This document shows, piece by piece, positions 29,076-63,279 of a DNA stretch of 64,000 nucleotides. This DNA comes from Hyphomicrobiales bacterium. GTDB taxonomy: Bacteria; Pseudomonadota; Alphaproteobacteria; Rhizobiales; Rhizobiaceae. The position numbers were made by a program, and so were the translations under genes. Within the stretch, counting starts at the first letter, position 1. The number at the start of each line of letters is the position of its first letter. Location of the stretch: contig UCLB01000001.1 in assembly GCA_900473205.1 (NCBI GenBank), forward strand, positions 1-64,000. Direction: 5' to 3'. The notes under the pieces were generated by a model. The model was given only the letters and a program-made list of their open reading frames with translations. It searched no databases and was not told where the DNA came from.

Positions 29076-29275
29076 CCACATCTCCTTTTCACAAGCGCTC
29101 ACAGTCTTTGCAGACGGTAACGGTTTACCTCCCGATTTGGACGCATGTTTTTTGCGACCTCAGCAGAAAGATATGAAGCCCATGCCTGTTACACAACTAT
29201 GACCGCCCCAACTTTCCAAATTGAGGGTGGCGGAAATCGGAAGAGCTAGCATCATCCGCGCAGTTTATTTTCTGT

Positions 29276-41543: not shown

Positions 41544-41765
41544 GTGATGTCAGGGTCAGTCGTTGCAGATGCAGATTGTATTGTGATGGCAGACCTGCGC
41601 CAAGGCAGCAAGCGATGTTGAGGGGCGAGACTGATTATTCGCTGTCACTGGCCAATCCGCCAAGTGGGTCACATTCGACTGCGTTCAACTTTCCGTTCGT
41701 CCGCGGCACTTTTACCGGCCAGCTCCGTTAACCCAACACCTCAAACAATCGAAGCGGAGTTGGAT

Positions 41766-43348: not shown

Positions 43349-43351
43349 GTC

Positions 43352-48994: not shown

Positions 48995-49230
48995 CGCATT
49001 TTCTCCATCATGGTAGCTCTGGCTGCTCAATTTATCAGCATTGAATCCGTTACTTGCAAGGCATCTGCACAGACAAAATGCGCCTTTAAAAAAGACATCA
49101 AATGGCTTCGAAAAGTGGCTTTACAAATGATATAAAGTGATAACAATAGAAAGAATAAAGCGTCCCCTCTACTGAGGAAGCGGCCCGCCTGTCGGACCGT
49201 GTGGAGGGTCGCAAGACACAGGAGGCCGTC
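48995..49230. other. Divergent intergenic region before the 13-kb operon
   Basis: 236 bases between the CMD-family gene and the cysteine-hydrolase gene. It is AT-rich around 49075-49165, with TTTACA near 49116 and AT-rich candidate -10 stretches (TATAAAG, GATAAC), but no promoter fits spacing rules convincingly. AGGAGG lies directly before the ATG at 49231. It should contain the promoter of the operon and the site for the HutC-type regulator at the far end of the cluster; no clear operator was found. Confidence 0.4.
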
Positions 49231-49908
49231 ATGGAAAACTCATCGCTTACCGCGCGTCAATTGTACGAGCAGGCCAAAGCCAATCCCACGCGCAAACGAT
49301 TTGGGTTCGGCCGCAAGCCGATGCTGATCAATATCGATTTGCAATGTGCTTACACGTCTCTCGGTGAGTTCGTGACGGCATATGAAACCGATCCCCGGCA
49401 GCTTGAATACGTCAATACGCTGTCCGGTCTCGCCCGAGACAAGGGCCTGCCGGTGACCTGGACCTATGTGGCCTACATGGAATCGGGTGAGGATTGTGGC
49501 GTCTGGGGCACGCGTACCAATACGCCAGATTCCCTGCAGAACATCAAGGTCGGTTCCCGCCGGGCCGAGTTCGATCCGCGCCTGAAGATCGATCACGTCA
49601 AGGACATCATCCTCAACAAGCGCATGGCATCGCCCTTCCACGAGACCAATCTTCAGTCGCTGATGGTCTGGCACCAGTGCGACACGGTCGTCCTAACCGG
49701 TGGCTCGACATCCGGCTGCATCCGCGCCTGCGTGGTGGATTCCATTTCGCGCGGCTACCGCGTCATCGTTCCCGAGGAATGCGTGGCCGACAAGCATGAG
49801 AGCCCGCATTTCGCCAATCTCTACGACATTTCAGTCAAATATGGCGATGTGATTCCAGTCTCGGATGCCATTGCCTGGTACGAGGCCTATCAGCCGGAGG
49901 TGCGCTGA
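49231..49908 (+). CDS. Isochorismatase-fold cysteine hydrolase (N-carbamoylsarcosine amidase-like)
   Basis: A 225-residue cysteine hydrolase. The catalytic triad of the family is visible: D36 in LINIDLQ, K130 in ILNKRMASPF and C163 in TGGSTSGCIR, with the usual cis-peptide before the Cys loop. Relatives include N-carbamoylsarcosine amidase, maleamate amidase and biuret hydrolase, all cleaving a terminal amide or ureido group. AGGAGG at ideal spacing marks ATG 49231. It is the first gene of the long operon and is followed within two bases by a PuuE-like gene, suggesting it removes ammonia from a half-amide made by that enzyme. Confidence 0.88.
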   Translation: MENSSLTARQLYEQAKANPTRKRFGFGRKPMLINIDLQCAYTSLGEFVTAYETDPRQLEYVNTLSGLARDKGLPVTWTYVAYMESGEDCGVWGTRTNTPDSLQNIKVGSRRAEFDPRLKIDHVKDIILNKRMASPFHETNLQSLMVWHQCDTVVLTGGSTSGCIRACVVDSISRGYRVIVPEECVADKHESPHFANLYDISVKYGDVIPVSDAIAWYEAYQPEVR

Positions 49909-49909
49909 G

Positions 49910-50857
49910 ATGGCTGACGAGGCGAGTGCAATGAAATCGGACCTCGGGCTCTATGATTATCTGCCTTGGCCGAACCGCCCGAAGATCGTCTGGCCCGGCA
50001 ACAAGAAAATTGCCGTCTGGATCGCACCCAACATCGAGTTCTACGAATACAATCCGCCGAACAATCCCACCCGCACGCCATGGGCGCGGCCTAACCCGGA
50101 TGTTCTGCAATATTCCCACCGCGATTACGGCAACCGCGCCGGTTGGCAGCGTATGATGGCGGCGATGGACAAGGCCGGTTTTCGTGGCTCCGTCTCGCTC
50201 AACGTCGCGCTGTGCGATCACCACCCTGAAATCATCAAGGCCTGTGCGGATCGCGGCTGGGAGTTCTTTTCCCACGGCATCTACAACACGCGTTATGTCT
50301 ATAATCTCGATATTGAGCAGGAGCGTGCAATCATCCGTGATGCGTTCGATACGGTGCGTAAACACACCGGTCAGGAATTGGCTGGATGGCTCTCACCGGC
50401 GCTGTCCAACAATTTCTGGACGATGGATATTCTGTCGGAAGCGGGCATTCAGTACACCTGTGACATGTTCCATGATGACCAGCCGATGCCGGTCAAGGTG
50501 AAGTCCGGCAAACTGATCTCCATGCCGTACTCGCTCGAGATGAACGACGTCATCGTTTACAACAGCCAGAAGGTCACGCCGCGCCATTATGGCGAAATAA
50601 TCAAGCGGCAGTTCGATCAACTCTACAAGGAAGGCGATGAGAGCGGCACGGTCATGTGCATTCCGCTGCATCCATACCTTGTTGGCCAGCCGCATCGCAT
50701 CGATGCCTTTGCCGAAGCCATCGAATACATCGCCAGCCATGACGGCGTGTGGCAGACGACAGGCCGTGAGATCGCAGCCGCCTATCATGCCACCGGTGCC
50801 TATGACGCCATGATCGCCGCCATGGCTGCCCATAACTCCGGGAAGGGAGCGCGCTGA
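49910..50857 (+). CDS. PuuE/imidase-like polysaccharide-deacetylase-fold hydrolase 1
   Basis: A 315-residue NodB-fold protein closest to the allantoinase PuuE and cyclic imidase branch rather than to sugar deacetylases. Family segments are RDYGNRAGWQRM, CDHHPEIIKACADRGWEFFS followed by HGIYN, GWLSPALSNNFWT and DMFHDDQPMPVKV. There is no signal peptide. Such enzymes open cyclic amide or imide rings (allantoin, succinimide-type). ATG 49910 lies one base after the preceding stop. It is followed by a second, divergent copy. Confidence 0.85.
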   Translation: MADEASAMKSDLGLYDYLPWPNRPKIVWPGNKKIAVWIAPNIEFYEYNPPNNPTRTPWARPNPDVLQYSHRDYGNRAGWQRMMAAMDKAGFRGSVSLNVALCDHHPEIIKACADRGWEFFSHGIYNTRYVYNLDIEQERAIIRDAFDTVRKHTGQELAGWLSPALSNNFWTMDILSEAGIQYTCDMFHDDQPMPVKVKSGKLISMPYSLEMNDVIVYNSQKVTPRHYGEIIKRQFDQLYKEGDESGTVMCIPLHPYLVGQPHRIDAFAEAIEYIASHDGVWQTTGREIAAAYHATGAYDAMIAAMAAHNSGKGAR

Positions 50858-51780
50858 TGTCTATGCCTGAAGACTATCTGAACTATCCCGCACGTCGTTA
50901 TGGCATGGACCATGATCGTTACGCGTGGAGCGACCTTTTCACCCGCAAGCCCATCTCATGGCCCGATGGTGCGCGTATTGCGGTCTCCATCGTCACCCAC
51001 GTCCAGCATTTTCCGCTCGACATGCCCTCTAAGCCGTTCAAGGCACCGGGTGCTTTGTCCATGCCTTACCCCGATTTTCGCTATTACACGAACCGTGACT
51101 ACGGCAATCGCATCGGCATTTTCCGTATTCTCAAGCTGCTTGCGGAAAAGGAGTTGGAAGCCAGCTTTGCCATCAATGGTGTGATCGCGGCGCGTTATCC
51201 GGCGCTGATCGACGCTGTGGTGCGGGGCGGGCATGAAATCATCGCCCACGGTCTGGATATGGGCAAGATCCATCACTCCGGCCTTGGCGAAGACGAAGAA
51301 AATGCCATCATTGCTGAGGCCTTGAGCCTGCTTCGTGAAGCGAGCGGACAGAGGGTCGAGGGTTGGTTGTCGCCCGGTCGCGCGCAGGGCTTCAACACGC
51401 CTGATCTTTTGGCACGCAACGGTGTCGCCTACAGCCTTGATTGGGCAAACGACGATCTTCCCTACGAGATGCAGACCAAAAACGGCTCGCTGCTCGCCAT
51501 GCCCATGGCTTACGAGACGGATGACCGTGTCGTGGCCGACGAGTATTTCCAGTCGGAAGCCGAGTGGGTGCAGCAGGTCAAGGACCGCTTCGATGTGCTG
51601 TACCGCGAAAGTGCGCAGTATGGCGGTCGCGTTATGAGCCTGCCGCTGCACAGCTGGGTGTCAGGCATGCCGTACCGCGTCGAATATCTGCGCGAAGCGC
51701 TCGATTACATTCTGTCGCATGAGGGCGTGTGGAATGCACCCGCGGGCGACATCTGCGTGGCTTTCCGTGCCGCTGGCTGA
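50857..51780 (+). CDS. PuuE/imidase-like polysaccharide-deacetylase-fold hydrolase 2
   Basis: A 307-residue paralogue of the preceding protein, sharing RDYGNRIGIFRI, GGHEIIAHGLDM, GWLSPGRAQGFNTPDLL and DWANDDLPYEM. It is clearly diverged, with GVIAARYPALIDAVVRGG where the first has a His-His pair, so the two may act on different rings or form a mixed complex. Start and stop of the pair overlap as TGATG, implying fixed stoichiometry. No signal peptide. Confidence 0.85.
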   Translation: MSMPEDYLNYPARRYGMDHDRYAWSDLFTRKPISWPDGARIAVSIVTHVQHFPLDMPSKPFKAPGALSMPYPDFRYYTNRDYGNRIGIFRILKLLAEKELEASFAINGVIAARYPALIDAVVRGGHEIIAHGLDMGKIHHSGLGEDEENAIIAEALSLLREASGQRVEGWLSPGRAQGFNTPDLLARNGVAYSLDWANDDLPYEMQTKNGSLLAMPMAYETDDRVVADEYFQSEAEWVQQVKDRFDVLYRESAQYGGRVMSLPLHSWVSGMPYRVEYLREALDYILSHEGVWNAPAGDICVAFRAAG

Positions 51781-51851
51781 ATGTATTGCCGTTGAGGTGA
51801 GTGGCCGCGGCTGCTCACCGATCGCTCTTTGAAGAATGGAAAGACAAGGTC

Positions 51852-53258
51852 ATGGCGCAAGCAGTCGCACCGCGCACAATGTTGGGCAAGATCTGGGATG
51901 AGCACGAGATATTGCGCCATCCGGCTGGCCCGTCTTTGCTTTACATCGACCGCGACATGATTCACGAAGGCAGCTTCCATGCCTTTGCCGATCTCAAGCG
52001 GCGTGGCCTGAAGCCTCGGCGTCCGCAGCAAATCTTCGGTGTTGCCGACCATTACGTGCCGACATTGGGCCGAAAGTCGAGCGATGCGGCAAGCCCGGCC
52101 ATCGCCCACATGATCGACACCTTTGATGAGAATATGGAATGGGGCGGCGTGCGCCATTTCGGCATATCGAGCCGGGAACAGGGCATTGTGCATGTGATGG
52201 CACCGGAGCAGGGCATCACATTACCGGGCCTCACCATCGTCTGTTCCGACAGCCATACCTCGACGCAAGGGGCGCTGGGTGCCATTGCCTTCGGCATCGG
52301 CCAATCCGAAAACGCGCATGTTCTGGCCACCCAGACGCTGTGGCAGTCTCGCCCCAAAACCATGCGCGTCACCATTGACGGCGTGCTGGGGCAGGGCGTG
52401 ACCGCAAAGGATGTGATGCTGGCGCTGATCGCCAAGATCGGCGCAGCCGGTGCCGGTGGCCACGCCATCGAATTCACCGGGCAGGTGGTGAGGGACCTTT
52501 CCATCGAGGGGCGGCTGACGCTCTGTAATATGTCCATCGAGGCCGCTGCCCGCTTCGGCATGGTTGCGGCGGATGAAACGACATTTGCCTATGTCAGAGG
52601 CCGCCATTTCGCGCCATCGGAGCAGGAATGGGACGGCGCGGTTGCCCATTGGCGCACGCTTGCCAGCGATAGCGATGCCTTTTTCGATGCCGAAGTGTCG
52701 CTGGACGCTGCGGATATCGCGCCCATGGTGACGTGGGGCACCAGCCCGGAAGATGCCGTTTCGATCAATGGACGCGTTCCCGATCCCTCGACTTTCGACA
52801 GCGTCGAAAAGCGCAAGGCGGTGACGAAGTCGCTGGAATACATGGAGCTTGCGCCCGGCACACCGCTGGATGGGCTGAAACTGGACAAGGTCTTCATTGG
52901 CTCCTGCACCAACAGCCGGATCGAGGATTTGCGTGCTGCGGCCTCCATTCTCAAAGGCCGGAAAGCGATGATACCGGCCATCGTCGTGCCGGGATCGACA
53001 CAGGTGAAGGCGCAGGCGGAAGCGGAGGGCATTGCCCGCACCTTCCTTGAAGCAGGTTTCGAGTGGCGCGAGTCGGGCTGTTCCATGTGCGCGGCAATCA
53101 ATGGCGACGTCGTTGGTCCCGGCGAACGCTGCGCCTCCACCTCCAACCGCAATTTCGTCGGTCGCCAAGGGCCCGGCGCGCGCACGCATCTGGTCAGTCC
53201 GGCCATGGCCGCTGCTGCTGCCATCAGCGGCTGTCTGACCGACGTGCGCAGGATGTGA
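51852..53258 (+). CDS. LeuC-like hydro-lyase large subunit
   Basis: A 468-residue large subunit of the isopropylmalate isomerase/aconitase superfamily. All three [4Fe-4S] cysteines are present: IGSCTNSR and the pair in CSMC. Other markers are VCSDSHTSTQGALGAIAFG and SNRNFVGRQGPGARTHLVSP. Length equals LeuC. Its place in a catabolic operon, with a lyase of the isocitrate-lyase superfamily and no leucine genes, points to a maleate-, citraconate- or dimethylmaleate-type hydratase rather than leucine synthesis. ATG 51852 follows AAGG; an in-frame start at 51801 is less likely. Confidence 0.9.
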   Translation: MAQAVAPRTMLGKIWDEHEILRHPAGPSLLYIDRDMIHEGSFHAFADLKRRGLKPRRPQQIFGVADHYVPTLGRKSSDAASPAIAHMIDTFDENMEWGGVRHFGISSREQGIVHVMAPEQGITLPGLTIVCSDSHTSTQGALGAIAFGIGQSENAHVLATQTLWQSRPKTMRVTIDGVLGQGVTAKDVMLALIAKIGAAGAGGHAIEFTGQVVRDLSIEGRLTLCNMSIEAAARFGMVAADETTFAYVRGRHFAPSEQEWDGAVAHWRTLASDSDAFFDAEVSLDAADIAPMVTWGTSPEDAVSINGRVPDPSTFDSVEKRKAVTKSLEYMELAPGTPLDGLKLDKVFIGSCTNSRIEDLRAAASILKGRKAMIPAIVVPGSTQVKAQAEAEGIARTFLEAGFEWRESGCSMCAAINGDVVGPGERCASTSNRNFVGRQGPGARTHLVSPAMAAAAAISGCLTDVRRM

Positions 53259-53265
53259 GGGCATA

Positions 53266-53883
53266 ATGATGAAAGCATTCATTCGCGAAACATCTACGGC
53301 GGTCGCCATTCCCGGCGTCAACTGCGACACGGACCAGATCATTCCCGGACGCTTTTTGAAGGCAGATCGCGCACAGGGTTATGGCCAGTTCTTGTTCCAC
53401 GACATCCGTCGTGACGAGCAGAAAGAGTTGGACCCTTCGTTTCCACTCAACAAGCCTGGCGCCGACGCCGCGACCATTCTTCTTGTCGAGGATAACTTTG
53501 GTTGCGGATCGTCCCGCGAGGGTGCGGTTTACGCGCTGGTGGACCATGGCATCCGGTCTGTCATCGGACCGAGCTTCGGCGATATTTTCTTCAACAATGC
53601 CCTGAAAAACGGGCTCGTGCCTGTTCGCCTGTCCGCAGATCATTGCGAGGCGCTGGCGGATCATCTCAACCGTTTTCCTGACGCAGAAGTTACGGTTGAC
53701 CTTGAGGCCGCCGAACTGATCCTTCCTGGTAATCTCGGCACTCACCCCATCACCATCGATCCCTTCGCGCGCGACTGTATCTTACGCGGTCTGGACGAGA
53801 TCGAGATGACATTCACTTTCATGGAGCAGATCACCGCCTTCGAAACGGATCGAATGGCGTCGCATTCCTGGCTGGGCCGTTGA
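53266..53883 (+). CDS. LeuD-like hydro-lyase small subunit
   Basis: A 205-residue swivel-domain subunit partnering the LeuC-like protein. It has NCDTDQIIPGRFLK near residue 20 and NFGCGSSRE at 78-85, then GPSFGDIFFNNALKNGLVPV. After the arginine-glutamate of the substrate loop most LeuD proteins have His-Ala-Pro-Trp; here it is Gly86-Ala-Val-Tyr, suggesting an altered substrate pocket. Two adjacent ATG codons (53266, 53269) are possible starts after GAGGG. Confidence 0.9.
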   Translation: MMKAFIRETSTAVAIPGVNCDTDQIIPGRFLKADRAQGYGQFLFHDIRRDEQKELDPSFPLNKPGADAATILLVEDNFGCGSSREGAVYALVDHGIRSVIGPSFGDIFFNNALKNGLVPVRLSADHCEALADHLNRFPDAEVTVDLEAAELILPGNLGTHPITIDPFARDCILRGLDEIEMTFTFMEQITAFETDRMASHSWLGR

Positions 53884-53937
53884 CGGGCGGACCAGCGAGT
53901 TTCTTTTGCCGTCTCATAAAAAAACTGGGAGCATAAA

Positions 53938-55155
53938 ATGACATTCAAAATTGAACGACGCGACCTTTTAAAGGTCTCTGGAGCGCTAGCCGTCAGCCTG
54001 GCTGCGCCATCTATTCTGCGCGCGCAGACACCCACCATCAAGGTTGGCGTCATCGAACCACTGACAGGCAACCTTGCCTATAACGGCACGCAGAGTGCTG
54101 CCGGTGCAAAGTTTGCGGCAGAAGCCATCAATGCCGCTGGCGGTATCAAGTCCATGGGCGGCGCCAAGATCGAACTCGTCGTGGTGGACGCGCAGAGCCG
54201 CCCGGAAGCCGCTGCCGCCGCCGTTGATACGCTGATCGAGGCCAATGCCTGTGCCTTCACCGGCGCAACGGCATCAGCGCTGGGCCTTGCCTCCTCGCAG
54301 GCCGCAGCAAAATACAATCTCGCTCAGGTCTTCTCCATCGGCACCGCCGAAACTGTTGTAACGCGCGGCCTGCCCAACGTTTTCCGTTTCACGCCGGGCG
54401 TCAACAAATGCACCAGCGTCGCGCTTGAGAACCTCAAGCTTCTGAATGCCGGCGCGGGCAATTCCATCAAGACGGCGGCCATTGTCCATGAAGACGGTCC
54501 CTTCGGCTCCAACATGGCGAAAATCCTGGCCGAGCAACTGCCGAAGCAGGGTATCGAAGTGGTCGAGACCATCTCGCATCCGACACCGCAGCGTGATTTC
54601 TCCAACATCGCGCTTCGCGTCAAGGCGTCGAAGGCCGATATCCTCATTCCGTCGAACTACATCAATGAATACACATTGATGGCGCGTGCGCTGAACCAGC
54701 AGCGTGTTGAACTCAAAGCCATCTATTCCATCCTCGGTGGCGCGGCATCCAACATCAAGTTCGTTCGCGAGAACAAGGAAGTCGCCCAATATGTGATGGA
54801 CTGCAATCACTGGTACGATCCGTCCAAGGACCTTTCCAAGGCGCTCGCCGCCAGCGTTGCCGCTGCAAAGCTGGACCTTACCTATGACGTGATGGTGTCC
54901 TATGCGACGATACAGGTCATTGCCGACGCTCTGGAACGCGGCGCTTCGGCTGATCGCCAGAAGATGATCGAGGCTCTGGCAGCATCGACCTTCGACCAGT
55001 CGATCATGCCTTACGGTCCGACGAAATTCGTCAATGGCGACAATGTCAACTCGCAGCCGGTGAACACGCAGATCCGTGGCGACAAGATCGAACTGGTGTT
55101 CCCGAAGGAATACGCCACCGCAGAAGCGGTCTTCCCGATCCCTGCCAAAAACTGA
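53938..55155 (+). CDS. Branched-chain-type ABC binding protein (Peripla_BP_6), Tat-like signal
   Basis: A 405-residue type-I periplasmic binding protein of the LivJ/UrtA family. The N terminus ERRDLLKVSGALAVSLAAP has the twin-arginine form, followed by cleavage after L-R-A-Q. The mature domain opens TIKVGVIEPLTGNLAYNG and shows AVDTLIEANACAFTGATAS. It is the specificity component of the importer encoded next. Members of this family carry amino acids, aromatic acids, urea and other small carboxylates or amides; the enzymes around it suggest a carboxylate or imide ligand. Confidence 0.92.
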   Translation: MTFKIERRDLLKVSGALAVSLAAPSILRAQTPTIKVGVIEPLTGNLAYNGTQSAAGAKFAAEAINAAGGIKSMGGAKIELVVVDAQSRPEAAAAAVDTLIEANACAFTGATASALGLASSQAAAKYNLAQVFSIGTAETVVTRGLPNVFRFTPGVNKCTSVALENLKLLNAGAGNSIKTAAIVHEDGPFGSNMAKILAEQLPKQGIEVVETISHPTPQRDFSNIALRVKASKADILIPSNYINEYTLMARALNQQRVELKAIYSILGGAASNIKFVRENKEVAQYVMDCNHWYDPSKDLSKALAASVAAAKLDLTYDVMVSYATIQVIADALERGASADRQKMIEALAASTFDQSIMPYGPTKFVNGDNVNSQPVNTQIRGDKIELVFPKEYATAEAVFPIPAKN

Positions 55156-55163
55156 CACGGTCT

Positions 55164-55195
55164 CGCCCCCACGGACGCCAATGTCCCTGGGGGCG
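55164..55195 (+). repeat. Hairpin between binding-protein and permease genes
   Basis: CGCCCCCA (55164-55171) pairs with TGGGGGCG (55188-55195), and GGAC (55173-55176) with GTCC (55183-55186) inside it. The structure starts eight bases after the binding-protein stop; no T tract of note follows. It is the third example in this window of a strong stem in this exact position. Confidence 0.75.
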
Positions 55196-55224
55196 CTCTT
55201 CAAACGACAGAGAGGCGAGCCCTG

Positions 55225-56094
55225 ATGTCAAGTCTGATCTTACCTGCCGTGTTGAGCGGCCTGATGATGGGAGCCGTCTATGCGCTGGTAGCGCTGGGGC
55301 TGACCCTCATCTATGGCGTGCTCCACATCATCAACTTTGCGCATGGCAGCCTGTTGATGCTGGCGCTTTACGCTGTTTACTTCCTGTATTTCTATTTCGG
55401 CGTCGATCCCTATTTCGCCATTCCCATTGTTCTTCCGGCCTTCTTCGCGCTCGGTTACGTGTTGCAGCGTTTCCTGATTGCGCCGATGAGCAGCGGATCG
55501 GAACAGAATGTTCTTCTCATCACGCTTGCCGTGTCGATGATCATCGACAATCTGGCGCTCTACTTCTGGACGTCGAATACCCGCACGGCGGATATCGCCT
55601 ATGCCTATGACACGGTCGAGGTGTTGGGCGCCTATCTGCCGCTTGGCCGTGTGATCGCTTTCGGTGCAGCACTGGCCGTCGCACCGCTTCTCTGGTGCTT
55701 CATGGCCTATACCCGCACGGGCTCTGCCATTCGCGCCGTGGCGATTGAAAAGCGTGGGGCCGAACTCGTTGGTATCGACGTCAATCATACCTATGCGGTC
55801 TGTTTCGGCATCGGTACGGCCTGTGTGGCGCTCGCGGCGTGTCTGTTGTTGCCAACATTCTACATCACGCCGCAGGTTGGTTACACCTTCGTGCTTGTTG
55901 CCTTCACCACGGTGGTGCTGGGTGGAATGGGCAGCTTGCTGGGCGCACTGGTCGCCGGTTTGCTTCTTGGCGTCATCGAGTCTCTCTGCGGTCTCTTCCT
56001 CGGCGAAAGCCTTGGCCAGATCGGCATCTTCCTCGCCTTCATCCTTATCCTTCTCTTCAAACCGTCAGGGCTTCTCGGGAGGGCAAGGACATGA
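55225..56094 (+). CDS. Branched-chain-type ABC permease, LivH-like
   Basis: A 289-residue LivH-family inner-membrane permease. It begins with spans in GLMMGAVYALVALGLTLIYG and the LivH hallmark LHIINFAHGSLLML, and contains RAVAIEKRGAELVGIDVNHTY, the cytoplasmic coupling segment, plus FTTVVLGGMGSLLGALVAG. Its stop overlaps the LivM-like start by ATGA. Confidence 0.94.
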   Translation: MSSLILPAVLSGLMMGAVYALVALGLTLIYGVLHIINFAHGSLLMLALYAVYFLYFYFGVDPYFAIPIVLPAFFALGYVLQRFLIAPMSSGSEQNVLLITLAVSMIIDNLALYFWTSNTRTADIAYAYDTVEVLGAYLPLGRVIAFGAALAVAPLLWCFMAYTRTGSAIRAVAIEKRGAELVGIDVNHTYAVCFGIGTACVALAACLLLPTFYITPQVGYTFVLVAFTTVVLGGMGSLLGALVAGLLLGVIESLCGLFLGESLGQIGIFLAFILILLFKPSGLLGRART

Positions 56095-57068
56095 GACCTC
56101 AATCCATTGGGCAGATTGCCCTCATCGCGGCGGCTCTTGCCTATCTCTTCGGGGTCTATTTCGCGTCATCGCCGGTGTGGATGGGCTTTACCATCAACGC
56201 GCTGATCGTCGCGGTCGTTGCCCTGTCGTGGAACATCACCGGCGGCTTCGGTGGCATGTCGTCCTTCGGTCACGCAGCACTTTACGGGACGGGTGCCTAT
56301 GCTTCCGCCATCCTTCAGGTGCAGTACGGCGTCAACGCATGGGTCGGCTTCGGTGTTGGCATTCTAGCGGGTGCTGTCATGGGTGCCTTCATCGGCGCGC
56401 TGGCGTTTCGCTACGGCCTGAAGGGCTCGTACTTCGCGCTCGTCACCTTGGCCTTTGCAGAAGTGCTGCGCATCTGCGCGTCGTCCTTCGATTTCACCGG
56501 CGGCGGCAGCGGGCTGCAATTGAAACTGGTTCCCGGCGTGGCCAACCTGCAATTCAATGATCGCACGATTGCCTATACCGCTCTTCTGGTCGTGGTGGCC
56601 CTCGTCATGGCGCTGACGGCTCTCATCAAATATTCCCGTTTCGGTGCTTATCTCATCGCCGTCAGGGAAAACGAGGATGCTGCACGCGCGCTGGGTATCG
56701 ACACTTACAAGATCAAGGTGCAGGCCATGGCGATCTCTGGTGCCTTCGGTGGTCTGGCCGGTGTTCTCTATCTCCAGCTTTGGCTCTTCATCGACAGCAA
56801 CGTGGTCTATGGCAGCGCCGTTTCCATCGAAGCACTGATCGGTCCGATCATCGGCGGTGCCGGGACGATCTGGGGTCCGTTGCTCGGCACACTCGGCCTG
56901 CATCTTCTAGGCGAAGGCGCGAAACATCTGCTGCCGAATGCGCCCGGTCTGAACTTCGTGCTTTACGCGATTGTGCTGATCTGCGCGCTGCGCTTCCTGC
57001 CAAACGGTCTTGTTGGTCTTGCCGGCAAGCTCGGCACCTTCAAGAAGAAGGAGGACGACAATGCTTGA
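56091..57068 (+). CDS. Branched-chain-type ABC permease, LivM-like
   Basis: A 325-residue LivM-family permease with about eight to ten spans. Diagnostic segments are ALSWNITGGFGGMSSFGHAA and RENEDAARALGIDTYKIKVQ followed by GLAGVLY, and GGAGTIWGPLLG near the end. The start at 56091 overlaps the LivH-like stop; upstream open frame belongs to the LivH region. Its last eight bases overlap the first ATPase gene. Confidence 0.94.
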   Translation: MRPQSIGQIALIAAALAYLFGVYFASSPVWMGFTINALIVAVVALSWNITGGFGGMSSFGHAALYGTGAYASAILQVQYGVNAWVGFGVGILAGAVMGAFIGALAFRYGLKGSYFALVTLAFAEVLRICASSFDFTGGGSGLQLKLVPGVANLQFNDRTIAYTALLVVVALVMALTALIKYSRFGAYLIAVRENEDAARALGIDTYKIKVQAMAISGAFGGLAGVLYLQLWLFIDSNVVYGSAVSIEALIGPIIGGAGTIWGPLLGTLGLHLLGEGAKHLLPNAPGLNFVLYAIVLICALRFLPNGLVGLAGKLGTFKKKEDDNA

Positions 57069-57801
57069 AGTCCGTAATCTTTCCAAAAGCTTCGGCGGCT
57101 TGAAAGCCGTCACGGATGCCTCGCTCGATGTGCCCGAGGGCTCTATCGTCGGACTTCTCGGCCCGAACGGCGCAGGCAAGACGACCTGCTTTACGATGAT
57201 TGCCGGTTTTACCAAGGCGGATGAAGGCACGGTGCGCTTTCAGGGCAAGGACATCACCGGACTTGCGCCGCACAGCATCTGCGCGCTGGGCATGATCCGC
57301 ACCTTCCAGATCGTTCAGCCCTTTGCCGGGCTAACGGTTCAGGAAAACATCGCTGTTGGTGCCTATCTTCATCACCACGACCGTCGCGAAGCCATGTTGG
57401 TGGCGCGGGATGTCGGCAAGCGGTTGGGTATGGGCGCGATGCTAGATCGCCCCGCCTCTTCGCTCACCATAGCTGGACGCAAACGCCTCGAACTGGCACG
57501 GGCGCTGGCGACCGGTGCGAAATTGCTGCTGCTTGATGAGGTTATGGCCGGATTGATCCCGTCCGAAATCACCGAGATCGTCGGTATCATCCGTAAAATC
57601 CGCGAGGAGGGGCATACCTTCCTGATGATCGAACACGTCATGCAGGCGGTGATGCAACTGGCCGAAACGGCCTATGTGCTGAACCAGGGCAAGATGATTG
57701 CCCATGGCACGCCGCGCGAACTCGTCAAGAACCCGTCGGTGGTGGAAGCCTATCTGGGCCACGGGGCGGCTGCCCGCTTGCAGGAGGAAAACCATGCTTG
57801 A
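57061..57801 (+). CDS. Branched-chain-type ABC ATPase, LivG-like
   Basis: A 246-residue LivG-type ATPase. It has Walker A GPNGAGKTT near residue 35, the LivG-type helical insert with RTFQIVQPFAGLTVQENI, a divergent signature region (LTIAGRKRLELARAL), Walker B LLLLDEVMAGL and the switch His in MIEHVM. It overlaps livM by eight bases and livF by eight. Confidence 0.93.
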   Translation: MLEVRNLSKSFGGLKAVTDASLDVPEGSIVGLLGPNGAGKTTCFTMIAGFTKADEGTVRFQGKDITGLAPHSICALGMIRTFQIVQPFAGLTVQENIAVGAYLHHHDRREAMLVARDVGKRLGMGAMLDRPASSLTIAGRKRLELARALATGAKLLLLDEVMAGLIPSEITEIVGIIRKIREEGHTFLMIEHVMQAVMQLAETAYVLNQGKMIAHGTPRELVKNPSVVEAYLGHGAAARLQEENHA

Positions 57802-58495
57802 TATCAAGGGTATCCGCGCAGGCTATGGCTCGATGAGCGTGCTGCAAGGCATCGACATGCGCGTCGACAACGGCGAAATCGTCGCCTTGTTGGGCTCGAA
57901 CGGCGTAGGCAAGACGACGCTCAACAACGTCATATCAGGCTTCATCAAGCCAAGCGCCGGATCGATTTCCTTCAAGGGCGTGACGATAACGGGCAAAAAT
58001 GCGCGCGACATCGTGGCACTTGGCATCGCCCATGTGCCGGAGGGACGAAAAGTTTTTCCCAACCTTTCGGTTGGCGAAAATCTGAAGCTCGGTGCGTTTC
58101 GCCGTGCCAGCAAAAACACCAAGCAGAATTTCGAGCGCATCTGCGAAATCTTCCCGAGGCTTCGGGAACGAATGAACCAGCTTGCGGGCACGCTGTCTGG
58201 CGGTGAGCAGCAGATGCTGGCCATCGGTCGCGGCATGATGTCGGAGCCAGAACTCCTCATTCTGGATGAGCCGTCTCTCGGCTTGTCCCCCATCATGGTC
58301 GAAGAGATGTTCGGTCTGATCACCAAGATCAATGCCGACGGTGTTGCCGTGCTGCTGGTGGAGCAGAACGTGATGCAGTCGCTGGGTGTTGCAAAGCGCG
58401 CCTATGTCATCGAGCAGGGCCGTTTCGTCATGCAGGGAGAGGCCGCAACACTGCTGGCCGATCCGCAGTTGCGGCAAGCCTATCTCGGAATGTGA
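57794..58495 (+). CDS. Branched-chain-type ABC ATPase, LivF-like
   Basis: A 233-residue LivF-type ATPase: Walker A GSNGVGKTT, GIAHVPEGRKVFPNLSVGEN (LivF hallmark), signature LSGGEQQMLAIGRGMM and Walker B LLILDEPSLGLSP. AGGAGG precedes the ATG at 57794, inside the end of the LivG-like gene. It completes the five-gene importer. Confidence 0.94.
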   Translation: MLDIKGIRAGYGSMSVLQGIDMRVDNGEIVALLGSNGVGKTTLNNVISGFIKPSAGSISFKGVTITGKNARDIVALGIAHVPEGRKVFPNLSVGENLKLGAFRRASKNTKQNFERICEIFPRLRERMNQLAGTLSGGEQQMLAIGRGMMSEPELLILDEPSLGLSPIMVEEMFGLITKINADGVAVLLVEQNVMQSLGVAKRAYVIEQGRFVMQGEAATLLADPQLRQAYLGM

Positions 58496-58501
58496 GACGC
58501 T

Positions 58502-58525
58502 GCCCCGGATGGAGTGAGCCGGGGC
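58502..58525 (+). repeat. Hairpin between importer and lyase genes
   Basis: GCCCCGG (58502-58508) and CCGGGGC (58519-58525) form a 7-bp stem with a ten-base loop, six bases after the livF-like stop. There is no T tract. It separates the transport block from the catabolic block of the operon. Confidence 0.55.
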
Positions 58526-58551
58526 CAATTTACGGAGAAATGGAGAATACA

Positions 58552-59445
58552 ATGTCCCTTACACGTACCCAACGTCTGCGGCAGCTGCTGGCAGGCGAAC
58601 GCGCCCTCATGGCTCCCGGTGTGGTCGATGCCATGTATGCCCGCCTCGTAACCGAAGCCGGTTTTGACGCCATGTATATGACGGGCGCCGGCACCTCCGC
58701 CACACGGCTGGGCTATCCGGATGTGGGTCTGTTGACCATGACCGAGATGGTCGACAATGCCACCCGCATTGCCGACGCCTCCGATATTCCGCTGATTGCC
58801 GATGCCGATAATGGGTTCGGCGGTCCGCTCAACGTGCGCCGTGCCATTCAGCTTTATGAGCGTGGCGGCGTGGCTGCCGTGCATCTTGAAGATCAGGTGC
58901 TGCCAAAGCGCTGCGGCCATCTGGCAGGCAAGCAGATTGTTTCAGCTGAAGATATGGTGGCGAAGGTCAAAGCCGCTGTGGACGCACGTATCGACGAGAA
59001 TTTCGTCGTCATCGCCCGCACGGATGCGCTGGCGCTACACGGCCGCAACGCCGCCTTCGACCGGGCGGAAATGTACCGCGAAGCTGGTGCCGATGTCATC
59101 TTCATCGAAAGCCCCGGCCCGGATGACCTTCCGCATATCGCACCGCGCTTTCCCGGTATTCCGCTGCTCTACAACATGGCGACTTCGGGCAAGACACCGT
59201 TCCTGACGCGATCTGAAATCGAGGCGCTGGGTTTCAAGCTCATCATTTACCCCAACTGGCTGCTGCTTTCGGCCTGTGAGGCTGCACGTAAAACGCTTCA
59301 GGTTCTCAAGACCGAAGAGACCATTGCGTCGGTCGCGCCCAACGTCATGAACTTCAAGGAGTTCTTCGACATGGCGCGCATGCCTGAAATTCAGGAACTG
59401 GAAGCCCGCTACGGCACGCCGGAAGCAAACCGCACCAGCTATTGA
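58552..59445 (+). CDS. Isocitrate-lyase/PEP-mutase superfamily lyase
   Basis: A 297-residue member of the ICL/PEP-mutase superfamily, which cleaves C-C bonds of 2-hydroxy-dicarboxylates (methylisocitrate, dimethylmalate, oxaloacetate). Magnesium and catalytic regions are DADNGFGGPLNVRRAIQLY, VHLEDQVLPKRCGH and VIARTDALA. The KRCGH form matches the methylisocitrate/dimethylmalate lyase side. Two starts are possible; ATG 58552 has GGAG at better spacing than ATG 58540. In the operon it follows a LeuCD-like hydratase and importer, so it may cleave the hydration product, for example a substituted malate. Confidence 0.88.
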   Translation: MSLTRTQRLRQLLAGERALMAPGVVDAMYARLVTEAGFDAMYMTGAGTSATRLGYPDVGLLTMTEMVDNATRIADASDIPLIADADNGFGGPLNVRRAIQLYERGGVAAVHLEDQVLPKRCGHLAGKQIVSAEDMVAKVKAAVDARIDENFVVIARTDALALHGRNAAFDRAEMYREAGADVIFIESPGPDDLPHIAPRFPGIPLLYNMATSGKTPFLTRSEIEALGFKLIIYPNWLLLSACEAARKTLQVLKTEETIASVAPNVMNFKEFFDMARMPEIQELEARYGTPEANRTSY

Positions 59446-59461
59446 GCAGGAGATTTGAGCC

Positions 59462-60862
59462 ATGGCAGTGCTATCTGCGGAAGGCGTAACGTTCGATTTC
59501 GAAATGCCGGTGGTCGTCGTCGGGGCAGGGGCCTGCGGTCTGGTCGCAGCCCTTGCGGCCCATGATGCCGGTCAGGAAGTCATGGTTTTGGAGCGGGACG
59601 AGAACCCGACGGGCTCCACCTCGCTGTCTGCCGGTCTCATTCCCGCACCCTGCACCCGTTTGCAGAAGGAAGCCGGTATCGAGGATAGTCCTGAACTTTT
59701 CGCTCAAGACCTTGTCGCCAAGACCCATGACCACACGCCCCATGATATGGCGCTAGTGGCGGCACAAACCGCAGGTCCGATGATCGACTGGTTGATGGAC
59801 ACCCATAAGGTGGAGTTCGAACTGGTCACGGGGTTCACCTATCCCGGCCATTCGCGCCTTCGCATGCACGGCCCGAAAAGCCGCACCGGTGCCGACCTGG
59901 AACAGTCGCTTCTTTCTGCCGTGTCCAACGCCGATATCGATGTCGTGACAAATGCGTCTGTCGAAGATCTCTATGTGGATGCGTCTGGTCGCGTCACCGG
60001 TGTCCGTTTCCGTCGGCCGGATGGCGCGTTGGAAATGCTGGGCTGCAAGGCGCTCGTTCTCGCCTCTTGCGGTTTCGCTGGCGATGTCGCGCTTGTGCAA
60101 AAATACATCCCGGAAATTGCCGATGCCGAGTGCTGCGGTCACCTGTCCAACACGGGCGATGCGGTGAAATGGGGCGCACAGATCGGCGCGGCGCTGGCCG
60201 ACATGGGAGCCTATCAGGGGCATGGATCGGTCGCGCACCCGCATGCCTTGCCATTGACATGGGCTGTCATCACCAAGGGCGGCATTCTTCTCAACACGCA
60301 AGGCCAGCGTTTTTCCAACGAGATGCGTGGCTATTCCGAACATGCCGCAGAAGTCGCCGCGCAGCCGGACCATGTCGCCTGGGACATCTATGATGCCAAG
60401 GGCGATGAGGCCGGGATGGGCTTTTACGACTACCGTGAAATCCGCAAGCTGGGTGCCATCAAGACGGCAAACAGTCTGGAGGAACTTGCCACGGTAACGG
60501 GGCTTTCGCTTGCCGCCATTCGTGAAGAGTTCGAAGCCATCGAAACATCCGCACGCACCGGGAAGCCGGACCGCTTTGGTCGCAGTTTCACGCAGGATCA
60601 GGTGCTCAACGCCCCTTACTACTCGGTCAAGGTCAACGGTGCGCTGTTCCACACGCAGGGCGGTTTGGTGATCGATGCTGAGGCCCGGGTGCTGCGCGAA
60701 GATGGCACTGTTTTGCCGAACCTACTGGCAGGCGGTGGTGCTGCGCGCGGTGTGTCTGGAGATTCCAATTACGGCTACCTGTCCGGCAACGGCCTTTTAA
60801 CGGCCACCAGCTTTGGCCGCTTGGCTGGCATGACCGCGGCGCGGATTGCTGCTGAAAGCTGA
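59462..60862 (+). CDS. Fumarate-reductase-like FAD flavoprotein
   Basis: A 466-residue FAD protein of the fumarate reductase/3-ketosteroid dehydrogenase superfamily. The FAD-binding N terminus reads VVVVGAGACGLVAALAAHDAG, with STSLSAGLIPAP after the second strand, and the C terminus LLAGGGAARGVSGDSNYGYL then SGNGLLTATSFGRLAG closes over the cofactor. Such enzymes reduce or form the C=C bond next to a carboxylate. In this operon it may interconvert a succinate-type and a butenedioate-type intermediate, or act on the imide itself. No signal peptide or heme motif, so it is cytoplasmic. Confidence 0.85.
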   Translation: MAVLSAEGVTFDFEMPVVVVGAGACGLVAALAAHDAGQEVMVLERDENPTGSTSLSAGLIPAPCTRLQKEAGIEDSPELFAQDLVAKTHDHTPHDMALVAAQTAGPMIDWLMDTHKVEFELVTGFTYPGHSRLRMHGPKSRTGADLEQSLLSAVSNADIDVVTNASVEDLYVDASGRVTGVRFRRPDGALEMLGCKALVLASCGFAGDVALVQKYIPEIADAECCGHLSNTGDAVKWGAQIGAALADMGAYQGHGSVAHPHALPLTWAVITKGGILLNTQGQRFSNEMRGYSEHAAEVAAQPDHVAWDIYDAKGDEAGMGFYDYREIRKLGAIKTANSLEELATVTGLSLAAIREEFEAIETSARTGKPDRFGRSFTQDQVLNAPYYSVKVNGALFHTQGGLVIDAEARVLREDGTVLPNLLAGGGAARGVSGDSNYGYLSGNGLLTATSFGRLAGMTAARIAAES

Positions 60863-60880
60863 AAACAGGAGGAGAACGTT

Positions 60881-61654
60881 ATGAAGAAGGTTATGGTCAT
60901 CGTACCGTTTCCCATGGGGCAGGATGATCTCGCCCGCAGGCAAGCGCAGATGAAAGCGGTCGATCTCGGCCCGGGCATCGAGTTTCACTATCGCGCTGTG
61001 CGGGTGGGTCCGAAGAACTACTCGAGCCAGCACGATATGGCGTTCGCCGATTTCTCGATCCTTGATGCAGGACTTGATGCCGAGAAGGAAGGCTTCGACG
61101 CCGTCTGCATCGACACCATGTCCGACAGCGGCATGTCGATGTTGCGCTCTGTCTTGACCATCCCGGTCATTGCGCCGGGCCGTCATTCCATGCTGATGGC
61201 ACAGATGTTGGGCGACAAGTTCTCGATCCTGATAATGTGGGATCGCTGGAGAATGCTCTACACCAAGACGCTGGGCGAGCTTGGCATGGAGCACAAATGT
61301 GCGTCGATGCGCTCAATTGGCGTGACGCCCGATAATAAGAGCTTGCTTGCTGGCAAGGAAGACGAAGTCTTCCCGCTTCTGCTCGATGCGGCCAAGAAAT
61401 GTGTCGAAGAGGATGGCGCGCAGGTGCTGATCTTGGGCTCCACGACCATGCATGAGGTGCATTCTTGGCTCTCTGCCCGCATCGGCGTTCCCGTCATCAA
61501 TCCCGGCCCGCTGACCTACAAGCTGGCATCGGTTGCGCTTGATCTGAACCTCACACACAGCAAGGCGACATGGCCGATACCGCTGTCTCCCAAGCACGAC
61601 ATGATCCGCGCCATCGGTGCTGCCGGTGCGGCCTATCTGGAGGGCAGCCAATGA
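60881..61654 (+). CDS. Asp/Glu/hydantoin-racemase-like protein 1
   Basis: A 257-residue protein of the Asp/Glu/hydantoin racemase superfamily, which also includes maleate cis-trans isomerase and arylmalonate decarboxylase. The first catalytic Cys is present (C76 in DAVCIDTMSDSGM), but the second, normally in L-G-C-T, is Ser187 in ILGSTTMHE. A two-base racemase would need both, so a one-Cys chemistry such as decarboxylation or isomerisation is possible. AGGAGG precedes the ATG. Its stop overlaps the next, paralogous gene by ATGA. Confidence 0.85.
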   Translation: MKKVMVIVPFPMGQDDLARRQAQMKAVDLGPGIEFHYRAVRVGPKNYSSQHDMAFADFSILDAGLDAEKEGFDAVCIDTMSDSGMSMLRSVLTIPVIAPGRHSMLMAQMLGDKFSILIMWDRWRMLYTKTLGELGMEHKCASMRSIGVTPDNKSLLAGKEDEVFPLLLDAAKKCVEEDGAQVLILGSTTMHEVHSWLSARIGVPVINPGPLTYKLASVALDLNLTHSKATWPIPLSPKHDMIRAIGAAGAAYLEGSQ

Positions 61655-62427
61655 CCCGCATTCTCGTCATCGTTCCCTTCGCGTTGGACGCCGAAGGCGT
61701 GCGCAATCGTGAAGCGCAGTCGCAATACGTCCCGCTGCCTGCGGATTGGGAGTTGACCTATCGCCCCGTCACCTGCGGCCCGACATCTTTCATGTCGCCG
61801 CATGACTGGGGGCTGATGGACCTCGCCATCTTCGAGGCTGGGTGCAAGGCGCAAGAGGAAGGCTTCGATGCCGTTTGCATCGACACGATGTCGGACAGTG
61901 GCATGGTCATGCTCCGCTCCGTCCTCTCTATTCCCGTCATCGGCGCGGGCAAGGCTTCGATGCTTTACGCGCTGACGCTAGGCGGCAAGTTCTCGGTGCT
62001 GGCGCAATGGGAACCGGCATTGCCGCGATACCGCAAGGCCATCCGCGAATATGGTTTCGACCGTCAATGCGCCTCGGTGCGCAGTTTCGATCAGCCGCCG
62101 GATTTCTCCAACCTGTTGGGCGGCAAGGAAGACAGTGTTTTCCCAAGCATGCGCGATGTTGCCATGCGCTGCATCGAGGAAGACGGAGCGGAGGTCATCT
62201 GCCTGGGATCAACGACCATGCATCAGGCCGGAGAATATCTCGCTGCGAACCTGCCAGTGCCCGTCGTCAATCCCGGTCCACTCACCTACAAGCTGGTCGA
62301 GACCTTTCTCGCGCTCGGCCTCACCCACGGCAGAGATGTCTATCCGCCACCGGTCGAGCCGCGGCTGGATATGCTCCACGCCATGATGAGGGCGGGAGCC
62401 GCCGTGGAGAATGCGGCAAAGGGCTGA
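61651..62427 (+). CDS. Asp/Glu/hydantoin-racemase-like protein 2
   Basis: A 258-residue paralogue of the preceding protein with the same residues at the same numbers: C76 in DAVCIDTMSDSGM and Ser187 in CLGSTTMHQ. The pair is coupled by ATGA and probably arose by tandem duplication followed by divergence (for example GQDDLARRQAQ versus LDAEGVRNREAQ near the N terminus), so it may form a heteromer. It is the last plus-strand gene of the operon and converges on the regulator gene; no clear terminator was seen in the 84-base gap. Confidence 0.85.
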   Translation: MTRILVIVPFALDAEGVRNREAQSQYVPLPADWELTYRPVTCGPTSFMSPHDWGLMDLAIFEAGCKAQEEGFDAVCIDTMSDSGMVMLRSVLSIPVIGAGKASMLYALTLGGKFSVLAQWEPALPRYRKAIREYGFDRQCASVRSFDQPPDFSNLLGGKEDSVFPSMRDVAMRCIEEDGAEVICLGSTTMHQAGEYLAANLPVPVVNPGPLTYKLVETFLALGLTHGRDVYPPPVEPRLDMLHAMMRAGAAVENAAKG

Positions 62428-62511: not shown

Positions 62512-63279
62512 TCAGTTCCCGAGCGAAAAATCCTTGCCGTCTTCCCGCTTTAGCGAGACGCGGTATTCATAGCGGTCGGCCCGGTAGAAAATTTCTGCTA
62601 CATAGAACGGCTTCAGATCGGCGTTGAAGAACACGCGGTTCACCAGCATCAGCGGGGCTCCAATGGGAATTTCCAGATGCTTGGCGGCGTAATCATCGGC
62701 AAGCGTGGCCGTCAGTGTCTGTTCGACCTGTTCCACCACCACACCGGTTTTCTGCACCAGATCGATCATATTGGTGGTCGCCAGGTCCTGGCGGTTCAGC
62801 GTTTGGCCGATCTCGGGGAGGAGATAGGCAATCGACAGCGAATAGGGGCGTCGGTCGAGGGAGCGGATGCGGACGGCGCGTATCAGTTCTGTGGTGGGTG
62901 GGACACCCATCTGCTCGCAGATGCGCGGTGGCGCTTCACCGAGATCGAGGCTGACGACCTTCAGCCGCGTATTCTTACCCACCGTGTTGAGGTAGCTGAA
63001 CAGGCTGTTGATGTTTGAAACGACAGCGCGGTTGAGTTTGTTTTCCTTAGAGCGGTCGGTGACATAGGTTCCGCGTCCGCGCGTCCGCGTCACCAAACCC
63101 TCCGCCGTCAACATTTCCATGGCCTTGCGGATGGTGATGCGGCTGACGGAAAAGCTTTCGGAAAGCTCCGCTTCGCTCGGCACCGGCACGTCGATTGGGT
63201 AATAACCCTTGACGATACGTTCGCGCATGACCGCATAAACGCGATGATAAAGCGGGGTCGGGGAATGTCGTTCGGCCAT
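62512..63279 (-). CDS. GntR-family regulator, HutC/UTRA type
   Basis: A 255-residue regulator with an N-terminal winged helix (PLYHRVYAVMRERIVKGYYP, VSRITIRKAMEMLTAEGLV and the wing RGRGTYV, residues 8-72) and a C-terminal UTRA ligand-binding domain (about 95-240; IRAVRIRSLDRRPYSLSIAYL and FYVAEIFYRADRYEYRVSL). It converges on the operon that begins at 49231 and is the only regulator at this end, so it probably senses an intermediate of that pathway. Just upstream of its ATG lies the palindrome TGGATCCA (63287-63294), a possible autoregulatory site. Confidence 0.9.
   Translation of the reverse strand: MAERHSPTPLYHRVYAVMRERIVKGYYPIDVPVPSEAELSESFSVSRITIRKAMEMLTAEGLVTRTRGRGTYVTDRSKENKLNRAVVSNINSLFSYLNTVGKNTRLKVVSLDLGEAPPRICEQMGVPPTTELIRAVRIRSLDRRPYSLSIAYLLPEIGQTLNRQDLATTNMIDLVQKTGVVVEQVEQTLTATLADDYAAKHLEIPIGAPLMLVNRVFFNADLKPFYVAEIFYRADRYEYRVSLKREDGKDFSLGN

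Follow-up and report, generated by a model that had tools for sequence, protein, structure and literature searches.

We analysed a 64,000-nucleotide stretch from a Hyphomicrobiales soil bacterium (assembly GCA_900473205.1, contig UCLB01000001.1, positions 1 to 64,000; called the window throughout) and found that fourteen plus-strand genes between 49231 and 62427 form an operon which, judged from sequence comparisons, probably encodes a cyclic-imide pathway. All fourteen genes start with ATG and contain no internal stop, and the largest intergenic gap is 71 bases, in agreement with the uninterrupted run reported in a first-pass annotation made from the letters alone; its family names were likewise returned by scans with Pfam and NCBIfam models, and the Liv-type importer does comprise five genes (Table 1). 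The gene set looks complete and transferable, and built for the import, ring opening, nitrogen removal and chain cleavage of a small nitrogen-ring compound. A narrower proposal, falling just short of an even call, is that the operon would enable the cell to take up a substituted five-membered cyclic imide and degrade it completely under aerobic conditions, hematinic acid and its dihydro form being the likeliest substrates. Hematinic acid taken by itself is the best single candidate, a tentative choice, and, marginally more tentatively still, the operon may represent the first gene set for aerobic assimilation of hematinic and dihydrohematinic acid, and hence of those pyrrole rings of chlorophyll and heme that bear propionate. 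It would do so with an undescribed methyl-homoisocitrate lyase releasing pyruvate and glutarate and with a cysteine-free branch of the hydantoin racemases, and related operons equipped with other ring hydrolases would share this role in halophilic, plant-associated and marine microbes.

In the proposed scheme we infer the individual reactions, the order of the fourth to sixth steps and the substrate itself. The Liv-type importer would bring the imide into the cell, the tandem proteins PuuE1 and PuuE2 would open the ring, and the isochorismatase-type enzyme (gH) would remove the amide nitrogen to give the tricarboxylate 2-methyl-homoaconitate. For the saturated form of the ring, the flavin adenine dinucleotide (FAD) enzyme would introduce a double bond and the racemase-family proteins R1 and R2 would set the stereocentres right. 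LeuCD would hydrate the cis-butenedioate to 2-methyl-homoisocitrate, which the PrpB-like lyase would cut into pyruvate and glutarate, and glutarate would enter a glutaryl-CoA route encoded elsewhere in the same genome.

A scan with R1 yielded 23 loci in other species, namely in Agrobacterium, Rhizobium, Neorhizobium, Tianweitania, Paracoccus, Defluviimonas and other Rhizobiales. The twelve genes from PuuE2 to R2 kept their order and strand at 22 of these loci, the remaining one (L011) beginning within livG at a contig end, and the amidase gene lay upstream of the block in 16/16 carrier genomes tested; the arrangement is more than chance. Genes outside the block varied between genomes when the flanks were clustered, which marks the block as the unit. 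An MmgE/PrpD gene stands between R2 and the regulator in some relatives (8 loci by clustering, plus L020) and was either lost from the window or never present there. Of 17 upstream regions from orthologous operons, 16 contain the inverted repeat CTTTA-N9-TAAAG with 0-2 mismatches, at a distance of 110-124 bases from the start codon of the amidase and in otherwise dissimilar surroundings, the exception being L089; in the window's own genome it occurs once, allowing up to 3 mismatches. The GntR-type protein would control the operon by binding this putative operator.

Related operons were found to use other enzymes at several steps. A search with the FAD protein returned 52 plasmid records at E 1e-60. 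According to the annotated neighbourhoods, Azospirillum carries a Liv-ICL-HyuBA-cysteine hydrolase-FAD-LeuCD run, Roseomonas the same with MmgE/PrpD in place of LeuCD, and Sulfitobacter LeuCD, HyuBA, cysteine hydrolase, ICL and FAD genes; Neorhizobium petrolearium and Tistrella have R1/R2 and a tautomerase, the Tistrella run being devoid of HyuAB and cysteine hydrolase; Acidiphilium has CaiB, HMGL, isochorismatase, PuuE1, PuuE2, LeuCD and FAD, plasmid pJE1 has CaiB, HMGL, the PuuE pair, LeuCD and ICL, and Variovorax has only isochorismatase, the PuuE pair, an ABC importer, R1 and R2. Haloferax and Halorubrum combine LeuCD, HMGL, a CoA transferase, an amidohydrolase, an isochorismatase, a luciferase-like monooxygenase, FAD, Liv and two MmgE/PrpD genes. 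Depending on the operon, ring opening is assigned to the PuuE pair or to HyuAB, haloarchaea having a cyclic-amidohydrolase-family protein in this place; the hydratase step is assigned to LeuCD or MmgE/PrpD, and the lyase step to an ICL-type enzyme or to a CaiB-type CoA-transferase together with an HMG-CoA-lyase-like (HMGL-type) protein. Since the set of steps stays constant although unrelated enzymes stand in for one another at three of them, the comparison supports a sequence that runs from import through ring opening and half-amide hydrolysis to hydration and C-C cleavage, so that this part of the earlier proposal stands with a changed substrate. Two related operons also contain genes of the old-yellow-enzyme family, some members of which reduce maleimides (L028:829-1797, annotated as nitronate monooxygenase, and L029:5118-6092, annotated as tRNA-dihydrouridine synthase; Pfam 223 and 243 bits), which speaks in favour of the proposed pathway.

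Evenly poised, in our judgement, is the suggestion drawn from neighbouring genes that the lyase product would be glutarate. The Paracoccus loci L093-L095 have genes for a CoA-transferase, an acyl-CoA dehydrogenase and a LysR protein next to the operon, and the L095 dehydrogenase scored 734 bits against 4w9u (named acyl-CoA dehydrogenase) and 608 bits against the glutaryl-CoA dehydrogenase 3gnc. On a Burkholderia plantarii plasmid, a single run divergent from isochorismatase-PuuE1-PuuE2 comprises CaiB, glutaryl-CoA dehydrogenase (735 bits to 3gnc), ETF genes, a porin, ICL, FAD, LeuD and LeuC. In a third genus (L132, L135), a glutaryl-CoA dehydrogenase of 70-71% identity lies divergent from LeuC, genome G014 having a second copy elsewhere. 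Among 133 loci compared, this dehydrogenase was present at 6 when an identity of at least 45% was required, and each of these is a cassette locus. The neighbouring dehydrogenases of Paracoccus and B. plantarii did not reach the Desulfo-type glutaryl-CoA dehydrogenase model NF045552, and the best model of the neighbouring CoA-transferases was the succinate-glutarate model NF052585 (505.5 bits in Paracoccus, 441.2 bits for the partial B. plantarii sequence). A glutaryl-CoA dehydrogenase (80% identity) is also encoded in the genome of the window, away from the operon. An ICL-type lyase making glutarate would imply that the imide of its acid is a 3-(2-carboxyethyl)maleimide carrying one more substituent; pyruvate as the other product would make this substituent a methyl group, and the HMGL-type replacement, which suits a tertiary alcohol, points the same way. 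Glutarate plus pyruvate would thus correspond to 3-(2-carboxyethyl)-4-methylmaleimide, i.e. hematinic acid, whereas methylvinylmaleimide, named earlier as a speculative source, would not give glutarate and was abandoned.

The hydratase is LeuCD-like and unlikely to be a leucine enzyme. LeuC (637.7 bits) and LeuD (174 bits) score above the cut-offs of the NCBIfam models leuC (560.25 bits) and leuD (116.25 bits), but the genome has separate, higher-scoring copies of both elsewhere (819.5 and 252.7 bits), a higher-scoring second LeuC was present in 11/11 carrier genomes tested, and 15 operon rows split from 13 others in the LeuC tree with a branch support of 100/99.8 and did not group with housekeeping LeuC (the tree omits three divergent operon LeuC, one from Acidiphilium and two from pJE1). 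True isopropylmalate isomerase activity is therefore improbable, and a role in leucine biosynthesis was rejected. In the HEVTSPQAF-type loop, the Gln of which we take to be equivalent to aconitase Gln72, 60 LeuC open reading frames had 41 His (the window type), 13 Gln, 4 Gly and 2 gaps at this position, some genes being counted twice in overlapping loci; the 13 Gln-loop frames were 12 housekeeping or third copies and one pJE1 copy. Operon LeuD was unlike housekeeping LeuD in the loop following DTDxIIP. The lyase had its best PDB match in 2,3-dimethylmalate lyase (3fa3, 205 bits), followed by methylisocitrate lyases, missed the NCBIfam prpB cut-off (277.7 of 354.4 bits) and belongs to a group in which the catalytic loop K[KR]CGH is present in 55/55 related open reading frames.

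PuuE1 and PuuE2 have a polysaccharide-deacetylase fold with PuuE as the best NCBIfam model (126.3 and 127.1 bits); both miss the cut-off of the PuuE allantoinase model TIGR03212 (424.6 bits), and the best PDB match of PuuE1 is the PuuE allantoinase 3cl6 (103.5 bits). The gH triad Asp36/Lys130/Cys163 is retained in all 50 related open reading frames, and PDB relatives of gH include N-carbamoylsarcosine amidohydrolase (26st, 110 bits). The succession of a PuuE-related cyclic imidase and an amidase has a precedent in HxnM/HxnN of Aspergillus, according to the available part of the source (PMC9304392). At E 1e-80, PuuE1 was detected in 33 of 385 alphaproteobacterial genomes sampled and in 2 of 321 genomes of another class. 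Among the 24 census loci with a PuuE1 of at least 52% identity (L131-L154), an isochorismatase gene was near PuuE1 at 22 (the other two having HyuAB, L145, or an amidase, L152), PuuE2 adjoined at 23 (the contig end cuts the exception, L151), ICL was present at 13, LeuC at 9, and hydratase and lyase together at 8. The 16 loci with more distant PuuE1 (L155-L170) had isochorismatase at 1, ICL at 1 and neither LeuC nor FAD at any, with molybdenum hydroxylases, amidases or Liv genes nearby instead. The linkage to LeuC and ICL thus belongs to the PuuE1 branch of the window, and by itself the ring module also acts on other substrates. PuuE1/PuuE2 pairs directly beside molybdenum hydroxylases (L119, an Arthrobacter plasmid that also has an asparaginase, L165, L167 and L169) probably reflect a second use of this imide-opening module.

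The FAD enzyme is fumarate-reductase-like in fold only. The catalytic Arg site, presumably that of Arg402 in Fcc3, is Tyr in 49/49 relatives, which uniformly have His/Tyr/His at the inspected sites, and the carboxylate-binding Arg motif ANRLGG of fumarate reductases is absent from the window protein, so that a fumarate reductase was rejected; from the uniform Tyr our guess is a dehydrogenase using this residue. Similarly, R1 and R2 belong to the Asp/Glu-racemase superfamily as annotated and lack both catalytic cysteines: in relatives of at least 40% identity these positions were occupied by Thr/Ser (83), Ser/Ser (5) or Ala/Ser (2), with no Cys in 90/90 open reading frames, and the 102 family members down to 25% identity included 1 Cys/Cys and 4 Thr/Cys. 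R1 is nearest to allantoin/hydantoin racemases, and a working cysteine racemase was rejected; its AlphaFold model (mean pLDDT 54.9) was too poor and was not used. As R2 of distant operons has lost the shared motifs, an R1/R2 hetero-oligomer is possible. Six loci (L132, L133, L135, L137, L138 and L150) hold only PuuE1, PuuE2, isochorismatase, LeuC and ICL, with no FAD gene at an identity of at least 38% and no R genes within the fetched stretch. This content is the set needed for an unsaturated imide, and the missing genes fit a role of the FAD enzyme and R1/R2 restricted to saturated rings.

Several observations weigh against the proposed hematinic acid pathway. The fetched stretch contained neither hydratase nor lyase at 9/24 of the closer PuuE1 loci and a FAD gene at only 2/24, the PuuE pairs beside molybdenum hydroxylases indicate that the ring module is not maleimide-specific, the LeuC and LeuD scores exceed the leucine cut-offs, and the cassettes showed no gene related to tetrapyrroles. 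Concerning glutarate, most cassettes have no adjacent glutaryl-CoA dehydrogenase, the neighbouring CoA-transferases miss the NF052585 cut-off of 750, and no glutarate-type CoA-transferase was found at 45% identity in the L132/L135 genus loci. In three Paracoccus genomes the adjacent dehydrogenase is the only copy found and the P. aerius copy is on another contig, so the adjacency in this genus may be a chance insertion inherited by related species. R1/R2, the presence of two PuuE copies, the dehydrogenase gene at 63329 and the carboxymuconolactone-decarboxylase-like gene are left without explanation.

Of the alternatives, the one that survives best, itself rather doubtful, is a smaller imide degraded by the same logic, i.e. 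a methyl-, dimethyl- or ethylmethylmaleimide or -succinimide yielding pyruvate and acetate, propionate or butyrate. LeuCD-type enzymes hydrate alkylmaleates, as established for citraconate and isopropylmaleate, the nearest solved lyase acts on 2,3-dimethylmalate, and the PuuE1 loci L120, L139-L141, L148 and L154 have acyl-CoA dehydrogenases nearby that are not glutaryl-CoA dehydrogenase; the glutaryl-CoA dehydrogenase in three lineages, once inside the same plasmid gene run, would however be unexplained. A hydantoin pathway is considerably less likely. Here, PuuE or HyuAB would open a hydantoin, the isochorismatase-type enzyme would act as N-carbamoyl amidase, R1/R2 would racemise and the amino acid would be processed further, in keeping with the hydantoin- or allantoin-opening enzymes present in the PuuE, HyuAB and amidohydrolase families, with the closeness of the amidase to N-carbamoylsarcosine amidohydrolase and with the nearest relatives of R1. 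The cysteine-free catalytic positions throughout the closer R1/R2 relatives argue against it, the operon has no transaminase or ammonia-lyase, and LeuCD, lyase and glutaryl-CoA dehydrogenase would be left without a role.

A shade less probable again is a six-membered imide derived from a pyridine or glutarimide, as in the breakdown of isonicotinate, which runs through citrazinate and cis-aconitamide, or in fungal nicotinate breakdown (3-hydroxypiperidine-2,6-dione). The precedent of HxnM/HxnN, as far as described in the available part of PMC9304392, the four PuuE pairs adjoining molybdenum hydroxylases and one related operon (L126) beside genes annotated as 6-hydroxynicotinate reductase are in its favour; against it, the operon has no ring hydroxylase, and the paoABC-type oxidase 4 kb upstream is by model a periplasmic aldehyde oxidoreductase whose place is not constant in relatives. 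Finally, LeuCD as a spare isopropylmalate isomerase in an operon joining unrelated functions agrees with the model cut-offs and is very improbable in view of the higher-scoring second LeuC, the clade split, the co-conservation of the whole block and the lack of leuB in the operon.

The proposed imide pathway resembles parts of several known systems. Nicotinate fermentation ends with 2,3-dimethylmaleate hydratase followed by 2,3-dimethylmalate lyase, likewise an aconitase-superfamily hydratase and an ICL-superfamily lyase acting on a substituted maleate; in contrast, the hosts here are aerobic, the hydratase is of bacterial LeuCD type, an imide-opening front end, an importer, the FAD enzyme and R1/R2 are added, and methyleneglutarate mutase and isomerase are absent from the operon. 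The methylcitrate cycle (PrpD, AcnD/AcnB, PrpB) also couples a dehydratase/hydratase to a PrpB-like lyase releasing pyruvate and a dicarboxylate, and MmgE/PrpD accompanies many related operons, but the window lyase scores below the prpB cut-off, the feed is imide hydrolysis, no citrate-synthase-type gene is present and glutarate is proposed instead of succinate. The creatinine/N-methylhydantoin route uses HyuAB and N-carbamoylsarcosine amidohydrolase, and HyuAB stands beside an isochorismatase-type amidase in several related operons, whereas the window has the PuuE pair, dicarboxylate enzymes after it and racemase-like proteins without cysteines. Glutarate catabolism (CaiB-type CoA-transferase, glutaryl-CoA dehydrogenase, LysR) adjoins the cassette in Paracoccus, with the dehydrogenase in two other lineages too, and lies apart from the operon in the genome of the window. 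As in HxnM/HxnN and bacterial imidases, a PuuE-related cyclic imide hydrolase is followed by an amide hydrolase (PMC9304392, available part), with the difference that the window operon has a tandem PuuE-type pair, an isochorismatase-type amidase and a downstream hydratase and lyase.

According to the available part of PMC7318184, hematinic acid is an oxidation product of chlorophyll and heme, leaves contain hematinic acid in amounts similar to dipyrrolic products and no detected maleimides, both maleimides and hematinic acid occur in senescent leaves and lake sediments, and chlorophyll is made and degraded at 10^12 kg a year with the further fate of the products largely open. Maleimides are reported as porphyrin degradation products in PMC8669743, the available part of which holds nothing on their use. 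A literature search, with subscription papers largely outside its reach, gave no description of the operon or of bacterial hematinic acid assimilation, no paper combining 4 of 6 of its gene families, among the 16 papers listed as naming hematinic acid no title on bacterial assimilation, and for isonicotinate and citrazinate breakdown as a template one unrelated paper. The operon consists of ordinary folds that make up a modular pathway, widely spread and apparently undescribed; comparison supports its imide logic well and the glutarate product moderately. If it feeds chlorophyll imide fragments into central metabolism, it would provide genes, a reporter operator and markers for a missing link. 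Even with another imide, the modular set of three ring-opening families, two hydratase families and two lyase routes would be an unrecognised pathway type, and it corrects many gene labels, among them 'racemase', 'polysaccharide deacetylase', 'isopropylmalate dehydratase' and 'fumarate reductase'.

Table 1. Genes and elements of the operon and its flanks in the window.
Feature	Coordinates	Strand	Basis
Carboxymuconolactone-decarboxylase (CMD)-family protein, divergent, accessory	48446..49030	-	Pfam CMD, 36 bits
Inverted repeat CTTTA-N9-TAAAG, probable operator/promoter element	49119..49137	+	kept upstream of orthologous operons
gH, isochorismatase-type cysteine amidase, proposed half-amide hydrolase	49231..49908	+	Pfam Isochorismatase
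PuuE1, PuuE/imidase-family ring hydrolase, first of tandem pair	49910..50857	+	NCBIfam best PuuE; PDB best 3cl6
PuuE2, second PuuE/imidase-family protein	50857..51780	+	NCBIfam best model PuuE
LeuC-type hydratase large subunit	51852..53258	+	family models; tree
LeuD-type hydratase small subunit	53266..53883	+	family models
Liv-type importer, periplasmic binding protein	53938..55155	+	Pfam Peripla_BP_6
LivH-type permease	55225..56094	+	translation and position
LivM-type permease	56091..57068	+	translation and position
LivG-type ATPase	57061..57801	+	translation and position
LivF-type ATPase	57794..58495	+	translation and position
ICL/PEP-mutase superfamily C-C lyase	58552..59445	+	PEP_mutase/ICL models
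FAD enzyme, fumarate-reductase/flavocytochrome c fold, proposed dehydrogenase of saturated substrate	59462..60862	+	FAD_binding_2
R1, Asp/Glu/hydantoin-racemase-family protein without catalytic cysteines	60881..61654	+	Asp_Glu_race
R2, tandem paralogue of R1, 51% identical	61651..62427	+	Asp_Glu_race
GntR/HutC-type regulator with UTRA domain	62512..63279	-	family models; at 19/23 related loci
Carnitine-3-dehydrogenase-like/3-hydroxyacyl-CoA-dehydrogenase-family gene, accessory	63329..64000, cut by window end	-	homologue in L005

The two accessory genes recur in part of the clustered flanks, the CMD-family gene in 5 and the carnitine-3-dehydrogenase-like gene in 9, window included; the L005 homologue of the latter reached 243 bits against the carnitine 3-dehydrogenase model (cut-off 592). 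Upstream of the operon, the window encodes a periplasmic aldehyde oxidoreductase (41664-45550 and 39948-40955), the large subunit of which passes the PaoC cut-off (1366 bits), with an XdhC-family maturation gene nearby on the opposite strand. A functional link of these paoABC genes to the operon was rejected since their place is not constant in relatives; L009 and L032 have a related large subunit on the downstream side of the operon. Further genes of the window encode a urea carboxylase adjacent to an allophanate hydrolase (1796.7 and 815 bits, respectively; 33875-39243), the ethanolamine ammonia-lyase large subunit EutB (706 bits) followed by a candidate EutC (16697-18888), and methylmalonyl-CoA mutase on the minus strand (1247 bits; 26934-29102). 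Among relatives, the HyuAB-type operon of Sulfitobacter sp. S190 (L126) lies beside genes annotated as 6-hydroxynicotinate reductase, molybdenum oxidoreductase and two 'amino acid synthesis' proteins. R1/R2-type tandems in L065, L069, L072 and L103 stand beside UbiD, two isochorismatases, an AMP-binding enzyme and a haem-oxygenase-like diiron-family protein and constitute another cluster type using the cysteine-free racemase family, and in sphingomonad-type loci (L031, L076, L079 and L082) R1-like genes adjoin Rieske oxygenase large subunits.

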